Shown piece after piece: positions 12,411-20,798 of a DNA stretch of 20,798 bases; the stretch's first letter is position 1, and each line of letters opens with the position of its first letter. The notes beneath the pieces are model-generated. The model was given only the letters and a program-made list of their open reading frames with translations. It did not search any database and was not told where the DNA came from. The stretch covers positions 1 to 20,798 of the forward strand of contig NZ_JOIX01000127.1 of NCBI RefSeq assembly GCF_000720175.1, in the 5' to 3' direction. The position numbers were made by a program, and so were the translations under genes. Origin of the DNA: Streptomyces sp. NRRL S-337 (GTDB taxonomy: Bacteria; Actinomycetota; Actinomycetes; Streptomycetales; Streptomycetaceae).

Positions 12411-12905
12411 GCGGCGGCGACGCAGGACGAGACGGTCCGGTCACTGTCGGTGCACGAAGTGGGCTTCGCCTACCGGCGGCTGCGTGCCGCGGCACCGGTC
12501 ACCGAGCCGGTCGTGGTGCTGGGCGGGGCGCTGCAGGGGATGTTCGGCCGGCCGCAGAGGGAGGAGCGGCTGGGCCCGGTGGCGGACGTGGTGACCGCCG
12601 ATCCGCCCGGGATGGGAACCGCCGATCCGCTGCCGCCGGGCCCGGCCCACGGTCTGCTGTGCGCCGCCCTGGAGCGGATCATCGACGACCTGGACGTGCC
12701 GGCCGGGGTGCGTGGCACGCTGGTCTTCGGCGGTGAGCACGACACGGTGACGTCCGCGGACCGGCAGCGGGCCTTCGCCGCGCGGATTCCCGGCAGCCGT
12801 TTCCTGACCGTCCCGACACCGATCACTGGGTGGTGCTCGAACGGGCCGAGGACGTCGCGGAGTTGGCGGCCCGGTTCTTCACCGACGGACCGCTGGAGTG
12901 CGCCC
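12411..12905 (+). pseudogene. decayed alpha/beta hydrolase
   Basis: The frame just after the ketosynthase stop encodes the start of an alpha/beta hydrolase: HEVGFAYRRL, a VVVLGGALQGMFG oxyanion-hole strand, and a DPPGMGTADPLPPG loop. After ERIIDDLDVP (about 12700) the serine nucleophile elbow and cap are missing, and the sequence jumps to the acid strand GTLVFGGEHDTV. Near 12812-12820 one base is lacking: restoring a C to the CCC run would give VPDTDHWVVLERAEDVAELAARFF, carrying the catalytic His, now in another frame (from about 12820). There is no clear start codon apart from GTG 12450. Two lesions make this a pseudogene; the frameshift alone could be a sequencing error, the missing core could not. 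Confidence 0.75.
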
Positions 12906-13045
12906 CCGCGCTCGCCCCGGTGCCCCGCCCGGCGCCGCCACCGGTCCGTTGCCCCGCCTCCCCGGAGCTCCTTTCCGTTGCGGTGGGACAGCCCCGGGTG
13001 ACCGAGGCCCGAGATGCACCCCGGGTTTGTCCCCGGCGATAGGGG

Positions 13046-13086: not shown

Positions 13087-13172
13087 TTCGCGGGGGTCTG
13101 CGGGCCGGGCCGCGGGGTGTGAGCCGGGTAACTCCGGCGGGGGTCCCGAGCGGGGCGCGGGGGCGGTTCCGG

Positions 13173-13186
13173 GTGATGCCGGGCAC
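13173..13186 (+). promoter_or_regulatory. Crp-type site upstream of SLT gene 1
   Basis: GTGATGCCGGGCAC fits the Streptomyces Crp consensus GTG-N6-G-N-CAC exactly. It lies about 300 nt before the SLT gene, at the same place as an equivalent site in front of the second SLT gene (14669). Crp is known to control the wall-hydrolase gene rpfA in Streptomyces, which makes this assignment plausible. Confidence 0.5.
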
Positions 13187-13476
13187 GCGACGTACGTCAC
13201 GTACGGCCATTCCTAGTCGAGTGCCGCAGGGAAGTGACGCCTGCAATTCGGGGGGAATCGGGAATTTATATCGGACATCTCTCCTCAAGTCACGAAGAGA
13301 GGTAGTACAACACCTCTTTGCCACCCTCCAGGGCGGGCGCTAACCATGTTCCGGGTAGCACCGAGAACGTCTGCGAACTCCGCCGGAGCGGCGAGCGCGG
13401 CAACGACCCTCGGTCCTCACGCGCCAACCGAAGGCCGCCTCCCCCGCCACCAAGCTCTGGAAGAGGTCACATCCGC
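13187..13476 (+). promoter_or_regulatory. conserved leader of SLT gene 1
   Basis: This non-coding stretch is related throughout to 14683-14969. Shared blocks in order: GTACGTCAC next to the Crp-type site, CTAGTCGA (13213-13220), GGGAATCG, TCACGAAGA then an 8-bp hairpin (13296-13303 with 13312-13319) with AGTACA in its loop, CGCTAACCATG (13338-13348), and the ribosome site GGAAGAGG 10 nt before the ATG. Conservation far upstream of the start suggests a structured 5' UTR. Streptomyces wall-hydrolase genes often carry a c-di-AMP (ydaO) riboswitch, but I do not see its usual GGGGTGAATC and AGCTAACCTCG signatures cleanly here. Confidence 0.55.
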
Positions 13477-14076
13477 ATGTCCCGCTTCGCCCTGCCCCGC
13501 GCCGCCCGCAACGTCCGCATCACCCGCGCCCACAAGGCTTCCGCGGCGCTGGTGGCCACCGCGAGCTGCGCCGCCGCGCTGGCGTTCACCGCCGCGCCGA
13601 GCGATGCCGCGACCCCGTCCGCGCACGCACCGGCCGCGGTCAAGCCGGTCAGCGCCGACGGCATGCCGCTGACCGCCAAGGACCGTGCCGACGACGGCAA
13701 GAAGGACCGGGTCGTGGCGTCGTCCGTCGCCGACGGCCTGAAGGTCACCGCCGTCGAGAAGCAGGGGCGCACGGCCAAGAACGCCGCCAGCCGATCCGTC
13801 GAGCGCAAGACGATGGCCCAGGCGCCGAAGGCCACCCCCAAGGCCAAGCCGAAGGCCGCCCCCAAGCGCTACGCGAACAACCTCGACGGCTGGATCCGCC
13901 AGTCCCTCGACATCATGCACGCCAAGGGCATACCGGGCTCCTACGAGGGCCTGCACCGCAACATCATGCGCGAGTCCAGCGGCAACCCCAACGCCGTCAA
14001 CGACTGGGACATCAACGCCATCAACGGCATCGTGGGGCCACTGCCGTTTCCCGGCCTCGGGGCCGGCCGTCAGTAG
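13477..14076 (+). CDS. SLT-domain wall hydrolase, copy 1, C-terminus lost
   Basis: 199 residues as it stands. The N-terminus is a Sec or Tat-like signal peptide (basic start, hydrophobic core, cleavage near SDA-ATPS), so the protein is secreted. A Lys/Ala/Pro-rich linker (residues 100-128) leads into a soluble lytic transglycosylase domain that would cleave peptidoglycan. The catalytic Glu is E166 in MRESSGNPNA. The domain stops abruptly after NAINGI: the GLMQ-type motif and the last half of the fold, about 70 residues, are absent, replaced by 11 unrelated residues. Start ATG 13477 has GGAAGAGG 10 nt upstream. Paralog of the gene at 14970, which breaks at the same codon. Either misassembled or truly broken; as written it should be inactive. 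Confidence 0.8.
   Translation: MSRFALPRAARNVRITRAHKASAALVATASCAAALAFTAAPSDAATPSAHAPAAVKPVSADGMPLTAKDRADDGKKDRVVASSVADGLKVTAVEKQGRTAKNAASRSVERKTMAQAPKATPKAKPKAAPKRYANNLDGWIRQSLDIMHAKGIPGSYEGLHRNIMRESSGNPNAVNDWDINAINGIVGPLPFPGLGAGRQ
13933..14032 (+). repeat. 100-nt exact repeat, copy 1
   Basis: Identical base for base to 15366-15465. It covers the SLT catalytic region from PGSYEG to NGI. After its last base both genes diverge completely into unrelated sequence. Confidence 0.95.
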
Positions 14077-14261
14077 CGGCCGTGCCGGGCCGGGCCACCG
14101 CCGAAGAGCACGTCGAGCACGTCGCCGGCGAAGCGAAGTCCCGCCTCTTCCCTGGGAGAGAGGTGGTGGTGGTCGTCGACGGGCGCCGCGGCCGCGGACC
14201 CCGCGGCGAGGGCGCCGGTCACGAGAAGACCGGTGACAACAACGGCGATACGACGGAACAT
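14070..14261 (-). CDS. 63-residue secreted peptide of unknown function
   Basis: Starts with MFRRIAVVVTG and a clear signal peptide ending in SAAAA, leaving a mature part of about 37 residues with DDHHH near its N-terminus, an amphipathic stretch RFAGDVLDVLF and a GGGPARHGRY tail. No Cys, no chaplin repeat. The ATG at 14261 is preceded by GGAAG with 5 nt spacing. It converges on SLT copy 1, with which its stop overlaps by 7 nt, but that overlap depends on the doubtful junction at 14032. Function not recognised; a small exported peptide or envelope protein. Confidence 0.65.
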   Translation of the reverse strand: MFRRIAVVVTGLLVTGALAAGSAAAAPVDDHHHLSPREEAGLRFAGDVLDVLFGGGPARHGRY

Positions 14262-14668
14262 GAGCACTTCCCTACGGTGAGTGACGACTGCGTGGGTGTC
14301 ACTGTCAGGGAGCCGGGGCCGCGCCGTCATGCGACAGTCCGGGGCGCTGCTGCGAACGGACCAGCAGCACCGCCGTATTGCCGTAGCGGGGGCGTCCCCA
14401 ACGGCCGAGCCGGTACCGTGCCGCGGGGCGCACCGGCCGGAAATGCCCAGCGGTCTGCCGCACGTGAATTGGCGCACAAATGCCGCTCTTTTGGGCTCAG
14501 CAACAGTGCCCCGCACCACATTTATCGAATCCCGCTGGCCCACAACGGGCAGCCGGGCGGATGAATCGGCCGCGGCCGGTGCATGAAACGGCGTGGCCTG
14601 GCGGTAATTGCGGTGTGAGCCAGGCAACTTAAGCACCTCTATAACGCGGGCTTTCCGGCCGCTTCCAG
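14262..14668. other. intergenic region, nothing recognised
   Basis: Sequence between the divergently read secreted-peptide gene and the second SLT leader. I see no supported gene. It must contain the promoter of the minus-strand peptide gene. From about 14610 (GTGTGAGCCAGGCAACTT) it begins to resemble the region upstream of SLT copy 1 (GTGTGAGCCGGGTAACTC at 13118), so the duplication starts before the Crp-type site. Confidence 0.5.
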
Positions 14669-14682
14669 GTGACCCGCGGCAC
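14669..14682 (+). promoter_or_regulatory. Crp-type site upstream of SLT gene 2
   Basis: GTGACCCGCGGCAC fits GTG-N6-G-N-CAC. The central bases differ from the copy at 13173 while the conserved outer bases are kept, which is what selection on a binding site would give. Confidence 0.5.
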
Positions 14683-14969
14683 GCGATGTACGTCACTTAC
14701 GACCACGCCTAGTCGATGGAAGCCGCCGCTTTTCCAGGTCAACGCGGTGGGAATCGCTCATTACTTCAGAGAGCCGGGTTTCTCACGAAGATGGGTAGTA
14801 CAGAGCACCATTGCCTCGATTCCGGACCGTCGCTAAACATGGATTCCGACGCGCCGAGAGCGAGTCGCGGTGAACGCCCCAACGGCGAACGCGGCAAAGA
14901 CCTCCGGTACGCAACGCGCCGCCAAACAAGGCCGCTCCCCGATCCCGCACCTGGAAGAGGTCACTCTGC
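14683..14969 (+). promoter_or_regulatory. conserved leader of SLT gene 2
   Basis: Homologous to 13187-13476 in the same order and nearly the same length: GTACGTCAC, CTAGTCGA, GGGAATCG, TCACGAAGA, hairpin at about 14790-14812 with the AGTACA loop, CGCTAAACATG, GGAAGAGG at 14952-14959. The hairpin stem differs in sequence from the first copy (ATGG pairing with CCAT, against GAGG with CCTC) yet still pairs, which supports an RNA structure. Confidence 0.55.
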
Positions 14970-15611
14970 ATGCCCAGCTTCACCCTGCCCCGCGCTGTCC
15001 GTATGACCCGCATCACCCGCACCCACAAGGTCGCCGTGGCCGTTCTGGCCGCCGCGGGTGCCACCTCGGGTCTGGCGCTCACCTCCGCCCCGGACACCGC
15101 ACAGGCTGCGTCTGAGCACGCTCCGGCCGCGGTCAAGCCCGTCAGCGCCAACGGCCTGCCGGCCAAGAAGGCAGACGACGCCAAGACCGGCCGCCCGGTG
15201 ACCGCCTCGGTCGCCGACCACATCAAGGTGACCGCGGTCGCCAAGCAGCACACCGCCCAGCAGGCCGCCAACCGCTCCGCCGGGCGCAAGGCCGTGAAGA
15301 GCTACCCGAACAACCTCGACGGCTGGATCCGCCAGGCGCTCGACATCATGCACGCCAAGGGCATCCCGGGCTCCTACGAGGGCCTGCACCGCAACATCAT
15401 GCGCGAGTCCAGCGGCAACCCCAACGCCGTCAACGACTGGGACATCAACGCCATCAACGGCATCGCCATGAGGAGCAGCTTGCGAAGCGGCGGAATGGCG
15501 CGTTCGCCGCTGCGCGCGGAGCGGGCCCCGGCACAGCCGGGGCCCGCTCTGTTCCGTCCGGGGGCCGGCCCGGACGGCCCGGGTGACCGTCCCTGCCCGC
15601 CGGACGGGTGA
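14970..15611 (+). CDS. SLT-domain wall hydrolase, copy 2, C-terminus lost
   Basis: Only residues 1-165 look like real protein: a signal peptide (MPSFTLPRAVRM... to about AQAAS), a charged linker, and the first half of an SLT transglycosylase domain with catalytic E146 in MRESSGNPNA. Homologous to copy 1 along the whole length, with the linker shorter. After NAINGI at 15465 the frame runs into Arg/Pro-rich residues with no resemblance to SLT, straight through a terminator hairpin at 15519-15549, and stops only at 15611. The true stop codon and about 70 residues are therefore missing. Start ATG 14970 with GGAAGAGG 10 nt upstream. Confidence 0.75.
   Translation: MPSFTLPRAVRMTRITRTHKVAVAVLAAAGATSGLALTSAPDTAQAASEHAPAAVKPVSANGLPAKKADDAKTGRPVTASVADHIKVTAVAKQHTAQQAANRSAGRKAVKSYPNNLDGWIRQALDIMHAKGIPGSYEGLHRNIMRESSGNPNAVNDWDINAINGIAMRSSLRSGGMARSPLRAERAPAQPGPALFRPGAGPDGPGDRPCPPDG
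15366..15465 (+). repeat. 100-nt exact repeat, copy 2
   Basis: Identical to 13933-14032; ends at the same codon of the SLT domain. Confidence 0.95.
15519..15549 (+). terminator. terminator of the SLT gene 2 unit
   Basis: A 14-bp perfect stem, GAGCGGGCCCCGGC (15519-15532) with GCCGGGGCCCGCTC (15536-15549), and an ACA loop. No long T-run, as is common in Streptomyces. It lies inside the apparent reading frame of SLT copy 2, showing that the frame beyond 15465 is not genuine. Confidence 0.8.
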
Positions 15612-15660
15612 GATGCGGGGCCGGTCGGCGGACTGACGGCCTGTTGGGCCATAGAGTCAG

Positions 15661-15699
15661 GCAGCTCTGCGTATAAGTCTCTTATCGGCAGAATTCTGC
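15661..15699 (+). promoter_or_regulatory. cluster of three palindromes upstream of the muramidase gene
   Basis: GCAGCTCTGC (15661-15670), ATAAG-TCT-CTTAT (15673-15685) and GCAGAATTCTGC (15688-15699) follow each other. The outer pieces also pair across the centre (CTGC..ATAAG with CTTAT..GCAG), giving an imperfect 25-nt inverted repeat at 15667-15691. TATAAG at 15672-15677 could be a -10 box, so the palindrome may be an operator over a promoter. Wider arms GTCAGG (15656-15661) and CCTGAC (15715-15720) bracket the region. Confidence 0.5.
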
Positions 15700-15746
15700 T
15701 CAAATCCTGCCGTACCTGACTCAACCGAAGGCCTCGGAGGCATGCG

Positions 15747-16619
15747 ATGCCCTTGCGCAGATCCGGTCCGGCCCGCCGTAAAGTCGCCACGGCCGGAACG
15801 CTCGTTTCTCTCCTCTCCGTGCTCGCTCTGCCCCTCGCACTGCCCGGTTCGGCCACGGCGACCGATGCCGCGAAGAGACCCGCCCACCCCGACGCGGACT
15901 GGATGGGCTCCACCATCGCGCTCCACGAGGGCGTCGACCGGGCCGGCGGCATCGAGCCGCGGGCGTCGTACGGCAGGAGGGGGGTGGCCGGGGTCGACGT
16001 CTCCAGCCACAACCACAAGGTCGGCTGGTGGTCACTGCGCAGGTCGGGGGTGCGCTTCGCGTACGTCAAGGCCACCGAGGGGACCAACTACACCAACCCG
16101 TACTTCACCCAGCAGTACCGGGGCTCGTACAACTCCGGAATGATCCACGGCGCCTACCACTTCGCGCTGCCCGACCACTCCAGCGGTGCCACCCAGGCGC
16201 GCTTCTTCGCCAACCACGGCGGCGACTGGTCCCGGGACGGCAGGACACTGCCCGGCGCGCTCGACATGGAGTACAACCCCTACGGCGCGACCTGCTACGG
16301 CAAGAGCCACAAGGGGATGATCAACTGGATCCACGACTTCGTGCGCACCTACCGGGAGGAGGCCGGGCGCGACCCGGTCATCTACACGTCCACGAACTGG
16401 TGGAAGCGGTGCACCGGCAACTCCGGGAAGTTCGGCCGGAGCAATCCGCTGTGGATCCCGCGCTACGGCTCGTCCGTCGGCGCGCTGCCGGGCGGCTGGC
16501 GGTACCACAGCATCTGGCAGCACACCTCCTCCGGCCACCCGGTCGGCGACCGCAACCGCTTCAACGGCAGCTACAGCCGGCTGAAGGTCCTCGCGTACGG
16601 CGAGGACGACGACGACTGA
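15747..16619 (+). CDS. secreted GH25 muramidase (Chalaropsis-type lysozyme)
   Basis: 290-residue N-acetylmuramidase that cuts the MurNAc-GlcNAc bond of peptidoglycan. A signal peptide ends near SATAT-DAA (about residue 39). The GH25 barrel follows, with GVDVSSH (D84), VKATEGTNY (E111) and the catalytic pair D173 and E175 in ALDMEYN. It closely resembles the Streptomyces enzyme cellosyl, including the KFNGS/RFNGS-type C-terminal end, and lacks a separate wall-binding domain. GGAGG at 15736-15740 is 6 nt before ATG 15747; an ATG at 15742 is out of frame. The protein ends in an acidic DDDD tail. Likely role is wall turnover or competition. Confidence 0.95.
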   Translation: MPLRRSGPARRKVATAGTLVSLLSVLALPLALPGSATATDAAKRPAHPDADWMGSTIALHEGVDRAGGIEPRASYGRRGVAGVDVSSHNHKVGWWSLRRSGVRFAYVKATEGTNYTNPYFTQQYRGSYNSGMIHGAYHFALPDHSSGATQARFFANHGGDWSRDGRTLPGALDMEYNPYGATCYGKSHKGMINWIHDFVRTYREEAGRDPVIYTSTNWWKRCTGNSGKFGRSNPLWIPRYGSSVGALPGGWRYHSIWQHTSSGHPVGDRNRFNGSYSRLKVLAYGEDDDD

Positions 16620-16647
16620 CCGGCGACCCCTCCACCGCTCTGCTTCC

Positions 16648-18866: not shown

Positions 18867-20360
18867 TCACGCCGGACGGGTGCCGGCCGCGGCCTCGGCG
18901 GCGGCCGCGATGTTGCGGGCCATGCCGCCGAACACCACGGCGTGGAAGGGCGTGACGCACCACCAGTACGCATGGCCGGTCAGGCCGTGCGGATGGAACA
19001 GCGCCCGCTGGGCGTAACGCGTGCGGCCCTCGGCGTCGCGGCCGACCGTCATCTCCAGCCAGGCCAGGCCGGGCAGCCGCATCTCGGCGCGCAGTCGCAG
19101 CAGCCGCCCGGGCTCGGCCGCCTCGACGCGCCAGAAGTCGAGCGAGTCGCCGACCCGGAGGCGGCGGGCGTCCCGTCTGCCGCGGCGCAGTCCCACCCCG
19201 CCGGCCAGCCGGTCCAGCCAGCCGCGCACCGCCCAGGCGAGCGGGGAGGAGTACCAGCCGTGTTCCCCGCCGATGCCCTCCACGACCTGCCAGAGCGTCT
19301 CCGGCGGGGCGTTGACGGTGACCTCCCGCCGGTCGGTGTAGAGGCTGCCGCCGGCCCAGTCGGGGTCGGTGGGCAGCGGGTCGCTGGGCGCGCCCGGTAC
19401 GGCGGCGCCGGACCAGCGGGTGGCGACCTGGGCGTCCCGCACCCGGCGCAGTGCCAGGTCCAACGCGTCGTCGAAGGGCAGCGGGTGGCCCGGCGGGTCC
19501 GGGTCGGGAACGTAGCGGGCGATGTCGTGTTCGTGACAGACGACCTCGTGGCGCAGCGACTCGGCCAGCGGCCGGGCGATGCCCGGCGGGACGGGGGTGA
19601 CCAGGCCGATCCAGAGGCTCGACAGGCCGGGGGTGAGCACCGGAACGGGCAGGATGAGCCGTTCCGGCAGTCCGGCGGCCCGCGCGTAACGCTGCATCAT
19701 GTCGCGGTAGGTGAGGACGTCCGGCCCGCCGATGTCGAAGGTCCGGCTGACGTCGGCGGGGAGCCGGGCACACCCGACCAGATACCTCAGCACGTCACGG
19801 ACGGCGATGGGCTGGATGCGGGTACGCACCCAGCTCGGCGTGATCATGAGCGGCAGCCGTTCGGTGAGGTAGCGCAGCATCTCGAAGGAGGCGGAACCGG
19901 AGCCGATGATGACGGCGGCGCGCAGCACGGCGGTGGGCACGCCGGAGGCCAGCAGGATGTCGGCGACCTCGGCCCGGGAGCGCAGGTGGGGCGAGAGGTC
20001 CCGCTCGGGGATGCCGCGCGGGGTGAGTCCGCCGAGGTAGACGATGCGGCCCACGCCGGCGGCGCGGGCCTCCTCGGCGAAGATCCGGGCGGCTCGCCGA
20101 TCGGTCTCCTCGAACCGCCGGCCGGTGCCGAGGGCATGCACGAGGTAGTACGCGACGTCGACGCCGGCCAGCGCACGGCGCATCGAGGCGGCGTCGGTGA
20201 CGTCGCCGCGGACGATCTCCACCTCGCCGGCCCAAGGGTGGTCGCGCAGCTTCTCGGGTGTCCTGGCCAGCGCCCGGACGGCGTATCCGGCGGCGAGCAG
20301 CTCGGGCACCAGGCGGCCGCCGAGATAGCCGGTGGCGCCGGTGACCAGGGCGTCGCCCAT
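18867..20360 (-). CDS. SDR/NmrA-like NAD(P)-binding protein fused to DUF2867
   Basis: 497 residues in two parts. Residues 1 to about 300 form an atypical short-chain dehydrogenase: LVTGATGYLGG (GxxGxxG at 8-14), VRGDVTD, and a YYLVHALGTG region. From about residue 335 to 490 there is a DUF2867 domain of the SRPBCC-like kind (VNAPPETLWQVVEGIGGEHGWY, and the closing HGLTGHAYWW). This fusion is a known architecture in bacteria without an assigned reaction. ATG 20360 is 6 nt after GGGGAGG (20367-20373 on the plus strand, read in reverse); the open frame continues upstream through repeats but that part is not real protein. First gene of a two-gene minus-strand unit with the flavoprotein. Confidence 0.9.
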   Translation of the reverse strand: MGDALVTGATGYLGGRLVPELLAAGYAVRALARTPEKLRDHPWAGEVEIVRGDVTDAASMRRALAGVDVAYYLVHALGTGRRFEETDRRAARIFAEEARAAGVGRIVYLGGLTPRGIPERDLSPHLRSRAEVADILLASGVPTAVLRAAVIIGSGSASFEMLRYLTERLPLMITPSWVRTRIQPIAVRDVLRYLVGCARLPADVSRTFDIGGPDVLTYRDMMQRYARAAGLPERLILPVPVLTPGLSSLWIGLVTPVPPGIARPLAESLRHEVVCHEHDIARYVPDPDPPGHPLPFDDALDLALRRVRDAQVATRWSGAAVPGAPSDPLPTDPDWAGGSLYTDRREVTVNAPPETLWQVVEGIGGEHGWYSSPLAWAVRGWLDRLAGGVGLRRGRRDARRLRVGDSLDFWRVEAAEPGRLLRLRAEMRLPGLAWLEMTVGRDAEGRTRYAQRALFHPHGLTGHAYWWCVTPFHAVVFGGMARNIAAAAEAAAGTRPA

Positions 20361-20368
20361 GGCTGGCC

Positions 20369-20720
20369 TCCCCACGTACTCGGCTGTCCCGCCGTGGTGG
20401 TTTCTCGGCGTTGCGCGCTTTGCGGCGCCCCGTACGTACCTGTCTTTCCCGCCGCGGGGCTTGCTCGCGGTTGTGCTTTGCGGCGCCCCCGCACGTACCA
20501 GTCTGTCCCACCACGGGGCATCCCGCCGTTTCGCGCTTTGCGGCGCCTCCGTACGTAGCTGTCTGCGGCGCCGCGGGGCTCGCTCGCCGTTGCGCTTTGC
20601 GGCGCCTCCCACGTACCTGTCTTTCCCGCCGCGGGGCTTGATCGCCGTTGCGCTTTGCGGCGCCTCCCACGTACCTGTCTTTCCCGTCGCGGGGCTTGTT
20701 CGCCGTTGCGCCTGCGGCGG
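20369..20720. repeat. tandem array of six degenerate ~58-bp repeats
   Basis: Units run 20369-20429, 20430-20487, 20488-20547, 20548-20606, 20607-20664 and 20665-20720 (61, 58, 60, 59, 58 and about 56 nt). Each has ACGTAC near its start, CTGTCTTTCCC, a GCGGGGCTTG block, CGCCGTTGCG and CTTTGCGGCGCC at its end. The two units farthest from the SDR gene are almost identical; those nearest it are the most worn. No unique spacers between units, so it is not CRISPR. The first unit contains the SDR ribosome-binding site. Confidence 0.85.
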
Positions 20721-20758
20721 GCTGGGTTGTTGTGGGTGCGGTGACGGGCCTGCGGGGC

Positions 20759-20798
20759 CGGTGTTTGGGACTGCTGTCGCTTTACGTCCCAAACACCG
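20759..20798. repeat. perfect inverted repeat at the contig end
   Basis: CGGTGTTTGGGAC (20759-20771) and GTCCCAAACACCG (20786-20798) are exact reverse complements around a 14-nt loop. The window ends on the last base of the right arm. Confidence 0.85.

Follow-up and report, generated by a model that had tools for sequence, protein, structure and literature searches.

The window analysed here is the whole of contig C127 (20,798 nt), which belongs to a 9.06 Mb draft of 227 contigs from Streptomyces sp. NRRL S-337. It carries two similar genes with the beginning of an SLT-type domain, followed by a GH25 lysozyme-like gene that serves as an anchor of synteny (Table 1). In the ORF translations both twins keep to RNIMRESSGNPNAVNDWDINAINGI and diverge right after it, so that the frame of the domain is lost after NAINGI in each, as the preliminary description had reported. 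Past this point the frame of copy 1 continues into a chance tail of 14 residues, VGPLPFPGLGAGRQ, and that of copy 2 into one of 48 residues which crosses a hairpin. Both N-termini resemble signal peptides by eye, and the start regions are 75% alike over 13472-13668, in agreement with the earlier remark that the twins differ clearly upstream of the block that they share.

Table 1. Features of the window (positions in nt; strand in the third column)
Feature	Position	Strand	Remarks
Untrimmed Nextera adapter with index, contig start	1..51	+	C15, C20, C23 and C150 start with the same index
SLT gene copy 1, without 3' half	13477..14076	+	199 aa as written; intact counterpart in L066/L067
Tract common to the twins, first 99 nt, copy 1	13933..14031	+	14032 is a chance match
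Junction 1, read as false	14031..14032		~210 nt of L066 missing in the window
SLT gene copy 2, without 3' half	14970..15611	+	213 aa as written; intact counterpart in L066/L067
Tract common to the twins, first 99 nt, copy 2	15366..15464	+	15465 is a chance match
Junction 2, read as false	15464..15465		~259 nt of L066 missing in the window
Hairpin 3' of copy 2, inside the broken frame	15519..15549 (about)	+	By eye; present in L066/L067
GH25 lysozyme-like neighbour gene, synteny anchor	15747..16619	+	Pfam PF01183, E 1.3e-52
Last 99 nt of the contig	20700..20798	+	C143 ends with the same 99 nt; taken as the assembler overlap limit

At E 0.01 no Pfam family was matched by either broken product, PF01464 (SLT) staying short of the cut-off, and the same family was matched by the intact relatives P0001 and P0065 and by the strain's own paralog on C7. 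The twins may be called lytic-transglycosylase-like by name only. Copy 2 had been described as reading through a terminator; a strong hairpin is indeed read through, but it lacks a T run and is not counted by the terminator scan. No Rfam RNA was found across the window, nor in 13200-15000 at a laxer threshold. Elsewhere in the window, a hydrolase-like frame at 12450-13042 seems by eye to switch frame near 12820-12830, which may reflect a frameshift or a sequencing error; beyond the gene, this region gave only a 42-nt match to the compared stretch of L066 and L067.

The maximal exact match between the copies is 100 nt long (13933-14032 and 15366-15465), as had been noted before. Its last base, however, is a G in the window, and the closest relatives, L066 and L067, have a C here in both copies; base 14032/15465 therefore lies outside the shared tract, its identity is due to chance, and the true prefix is 99 nt long. 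A simple collapse at k = 101 in which the repeat alone was lost was rejected, since base 14032 matches by chance and unique spacer is gone as well.

L066 (S. nigrescens HEK616) and L067 (S. endophytica HNM0140) are complete genomes in which both SLT genes are whole; from NLDGW on, each reads 104 residues until its stop. BLAST matched the window pieces 13100-14031, 14032-15467 and 15458-16639 to them in order, with identities of 95.7, 95.6 and 92.8% for L066 and 96.3, 95.7 and 89.5% for L067. HEK616 and HNM0140 have a tandem PF01464 pair upstream of a GH25 gene, with the gene order of the window and with 5' halves and flanks that resemble its own, whereas the assembled sequence of the window has the pair without its 3' halves. 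The lengths missing at the two junctions come from arithmetic on the BLAST ends against L066; by this genome, the lost part consists of the remainder of the gene (166 nt, up to where the shared tract ends) plus ~44 nt (copy 1) or ~93 nt (copy 2) of spacer, and these spacer stretches differ between the copies. The right flank of each window copy is its own and syntenic, and the loss is confined between block and flank. The proposal that the wrong flanks had been joined is therefore incorrect, because each copy keeps its proper right flank and nothing foreign follows. In the readable sequence of the same assembly (19 of 20 sampled small contigs were all N), a search for the missing half returned only the C7 paralog, at 82%, the remaining hits being the flanks in the window itself and short random matches.

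We compared 57 readable ends of 54 contigs: the beginnings of C1-C40, of C150 and of the window, and ends found through a repeat-family search. It is a small sample in which a single repeat family supplied 17 of the 57 ends (C28 and C40 have their starts in both sets); a further 31 ends of 19 small contigs were all N and were left out. Three pairs of ends have exactly 99 nt in common and then diverge: the ends of C127 (the window) and C143, the end of C24 and the start of C40, and the starts of C8 and C38. Two of them fall among the repeat-family ends and the C8/C38 pair does not. Within the last 350 nt of the 17 repeat-family ends no exact match exceeds 99 nt, the next longest being 95 and 91 nt, and the sole other terminal match of at least 30 nt in the same direction measures 65 nt and joins two adapter-bearing starts. 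Entries of 200-300 nt between contig ends in the match table were discarded as meaningless, as they compare N with N.

Other peculiarities were seen at these ends. Nine other contig ends overlap end to end with the start of C39, by 35-69 nt and not by 99. Nextera adapter sequence is present at 7 of the 57 ends (the window start and six other contig starts), and in the window it is translated within the first open frames. Near the other end of the window, 20355-20725 holds an array of 58-60 nt repeats, and the last 499 nt gave at least 63 matches within the strain's own assembly, many of them at contig ends (40 of 252 first-look candidates were scored).

We looked for exact blocks of at least 40 nt between the copies in a survey set of 22 loci (L066-L087). 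Exact 99-nt blocks occur in three NRRL drafts of other species. Both copies of S. celluloflavus NRRL B-2493 (L085) are broken at the same codon, after TAAAN; in Streptomyces sp. NRRL F-4489 (L075) the frame shifts in both copies where the block stops; and S. chattanoogensis NRRL ISP-5002 (L080) is a mirror image, in which the last 99 nt are present and the preceding part is lost. This mirror form suggests that one contig end was kept whole, and the other cut, at each join. The record of S. lydicus NRRL ISP-5461 (L068) starts exactly 99 nt before the end of the tract at TGAGCCG, which is also the end of a 329-nt block in the single-contig relative G161 (L242), and its copy 2 is broken, 322 nt short of that same relative (L039). 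A fifth record with the naming style 'strain, contigN.1' (L086) starts within the tract and reads to the stop, and an NRRL record of another naming style (L077) is intact. L079 (S. inhibens) also starts within the tract, 83 nt rather than 99 before the TGAGCCG end by a hand count, and L084 has one full copy. Blocks of 99 or 100 nt were found in none of 22 loci in which both copies are intact (15 from L066-L087 and seven from a further search), where the blocks of at least 40 nt span 40-344 nt.

Among proteins, PF01464 is present in 113 of the 120 top-listed homologs, out of 5116 in all. The seven exceptions are window copy 1 itself (P0079), five entries all named partial (P0002, P0026, P0054, P0056 and P0112) and P0086 from strain NRRL S-1448. 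Four of the partial entries stop near the break point, at INA (P0002), NIM (P0026 and P0054) and VPS (P0112), and P0056 stops later, at TDP. P0086 breaks at NGIPSK, three codons later than the window, and from its sequence it then appears to run into the copy 1 spacer; to us this is probably the same error, another base being the last that tells the copies apart, though a second real deletion would be an alternative reading.

Taken together, these data make it very nearly certain to us that the break is a short-read assembly error within a tract common to both genes, and not a biological event. An error of the assembler had been proposed for both breaks before, and this is now strongly supported because the break sits at the 99-nt limit shown by other contig ends of the same assembly, the block being equal to the overlap read from the three end pairs. 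Of what an artefact would lead one to expect, intact sequence between the same flanks is found in the finished relatives (L066 and L067), and the block before the break has the overlap length, 99 nt, in both copies. The adapter sequence left at contig ends points the same way, as do the 99-nt blocks of the broken NRRL drafts, a length that none of the 22 intact loci shows. On the other hand, the C39 overlaps differ from 99 nt, the break in NRRL S-1448 is placed elsewhere, and the loss is not limited to the repeat, with ~44 and ~93 nt of unique spacer gone.

That last point is what two real deletions would account for, starting at the same codon and each ending in its own spacer, for instance through recombination at short homologies. 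Their right ends would lie within copy-specific spacers and not at the end of the repeat, the copy 1 spacer of L066 and L067 shares the short motif GCATC with the block end, and P0086 is broken in the same gene. We nevertheless consider this highly improbable: two independent events at one codon would have to coincide with the 99-nt limit of the assembly, the same limit marks breaks in drafts of other species, and all seven complete or single-contig loci examined have both copies intact (L066, L067, L073, L242, L243, L244 and L247). The intact loci and the 99-nt signature in the other drafts likewise speak against the earlier suggestion that recombination at the identical block had deleted both ends. 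Were the tract instead a true deletion hot spot, the window twins and copy 1 of NRRL S-1448 would have lost their halves independently and the agreement at 99 nt would be a coincidence, which we hold to be very doubtful. One could argue from the open frames, which extend 14 and 48 residues beyond the break, that the genes are naturally truncated or fused and have acquired new tails at the C-terminus, but the homologs with PF01464 and the nature of the few exceptions run counter to this, and neither tail occurs in that frame in the 12 homolog sequences inspected of the best 120, the window's own excepted; such forms are scarcely credible.

We explain the sequence by such an error as follows. 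The genome very probably carries two intact tandem SLT-domain genes with an identical or nearly identical tract over the halves that encode the catalytic domain. An assembler that stops at overlaps of 99 nt (which would mean k = 100) would be unable to choose the copy with which to continue, and both left-hand contigs would end after the first 99 nt of the tract. Each left contig would later have been joined to its own right flank without a gap mark, with loss of the middle ~210 or ~259 nt, and the truncated frames and their tails would be products of these joins. As unique spacer was lost beyond the repeat, which repeat collapse alone does not predict, a trimming step is needed, and we infer one here. 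The joiner may have been a scaffolder of the IDBA type, which would cut bases upon an estimated negative gap.

IDBA-UD allows even k and is intended for reads of up to 100 bp, according to the excerpt of PMC5242441 that was available. These traits fit k = 100 without being proof of it, and IDBA-UD is a candidate only; our literature search found nothing tying these NRRL records to it. The available part of PMC4239341 describes the use of GS FLX and gsAssembler for other strains, and that of PMC6795807 contains nothing on assembler defaults. Work on gene fragmentation in bacterial draft genomes (PMC3322347, in the portion available) likewise describes ORFs broken where reads fail to bridge a repeat. 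Unlike in those cases, the pieces of the window are rejoined without a gap mark, and the break mimics a mutation inside a contig.

The shared tract itself is real. In 13 of the 22 loci of the survey set (those with exactly two full copies by pattern), mean identity of the domain DNA is 0.949 between the copies within a genome, versus 0.901 and 0.908 when each copy is compared with its counterpart in other genomes. The upstream DNA shows the reverse, with 0.739 within genomes against 0.775 and 0.807 between them. In trees, the upstream halves group by copy, L087 excepted. In L074, L081, L083 and L087 the two domain halves of a genome fall together, and in L071/L072 and for copy 1 of L077/L078 they group by copy; this tree is mostly weak, with good support for 3 of 21 inner branches. 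We also observed that the domain halves of L066, L067, L081, L083, L087, L242 and L247 are nearly or fully identical within each genome, with blocks of up to 344 nt, and that the upstream halves are 74-79% alike in the five of these compared (L066, L067, L081, L083 and L087). The pattern fits gene conversion that is confined to the catalytic half and has acted in some lineages but not in all. A literature search for misassembly together with gene conversion yielded no specific paper, and among the papers searched none combines 'transglycosylase SLT', Streptomyces and gene conversion.

These observations carry a warning, in that contigs of certain Streptomyces drafts have been joined silently, with no gap, at shared 99-nt blocks, and such joins yield false pseudogenes and false C-terminal tails. 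The SLT genes of L085, L075, L080 and L068 should be treated as artefacts. The real feature behind the error is that the domain halves of these twin genes look homogenised in several genomes, while their upstream halves stay copy-specific.
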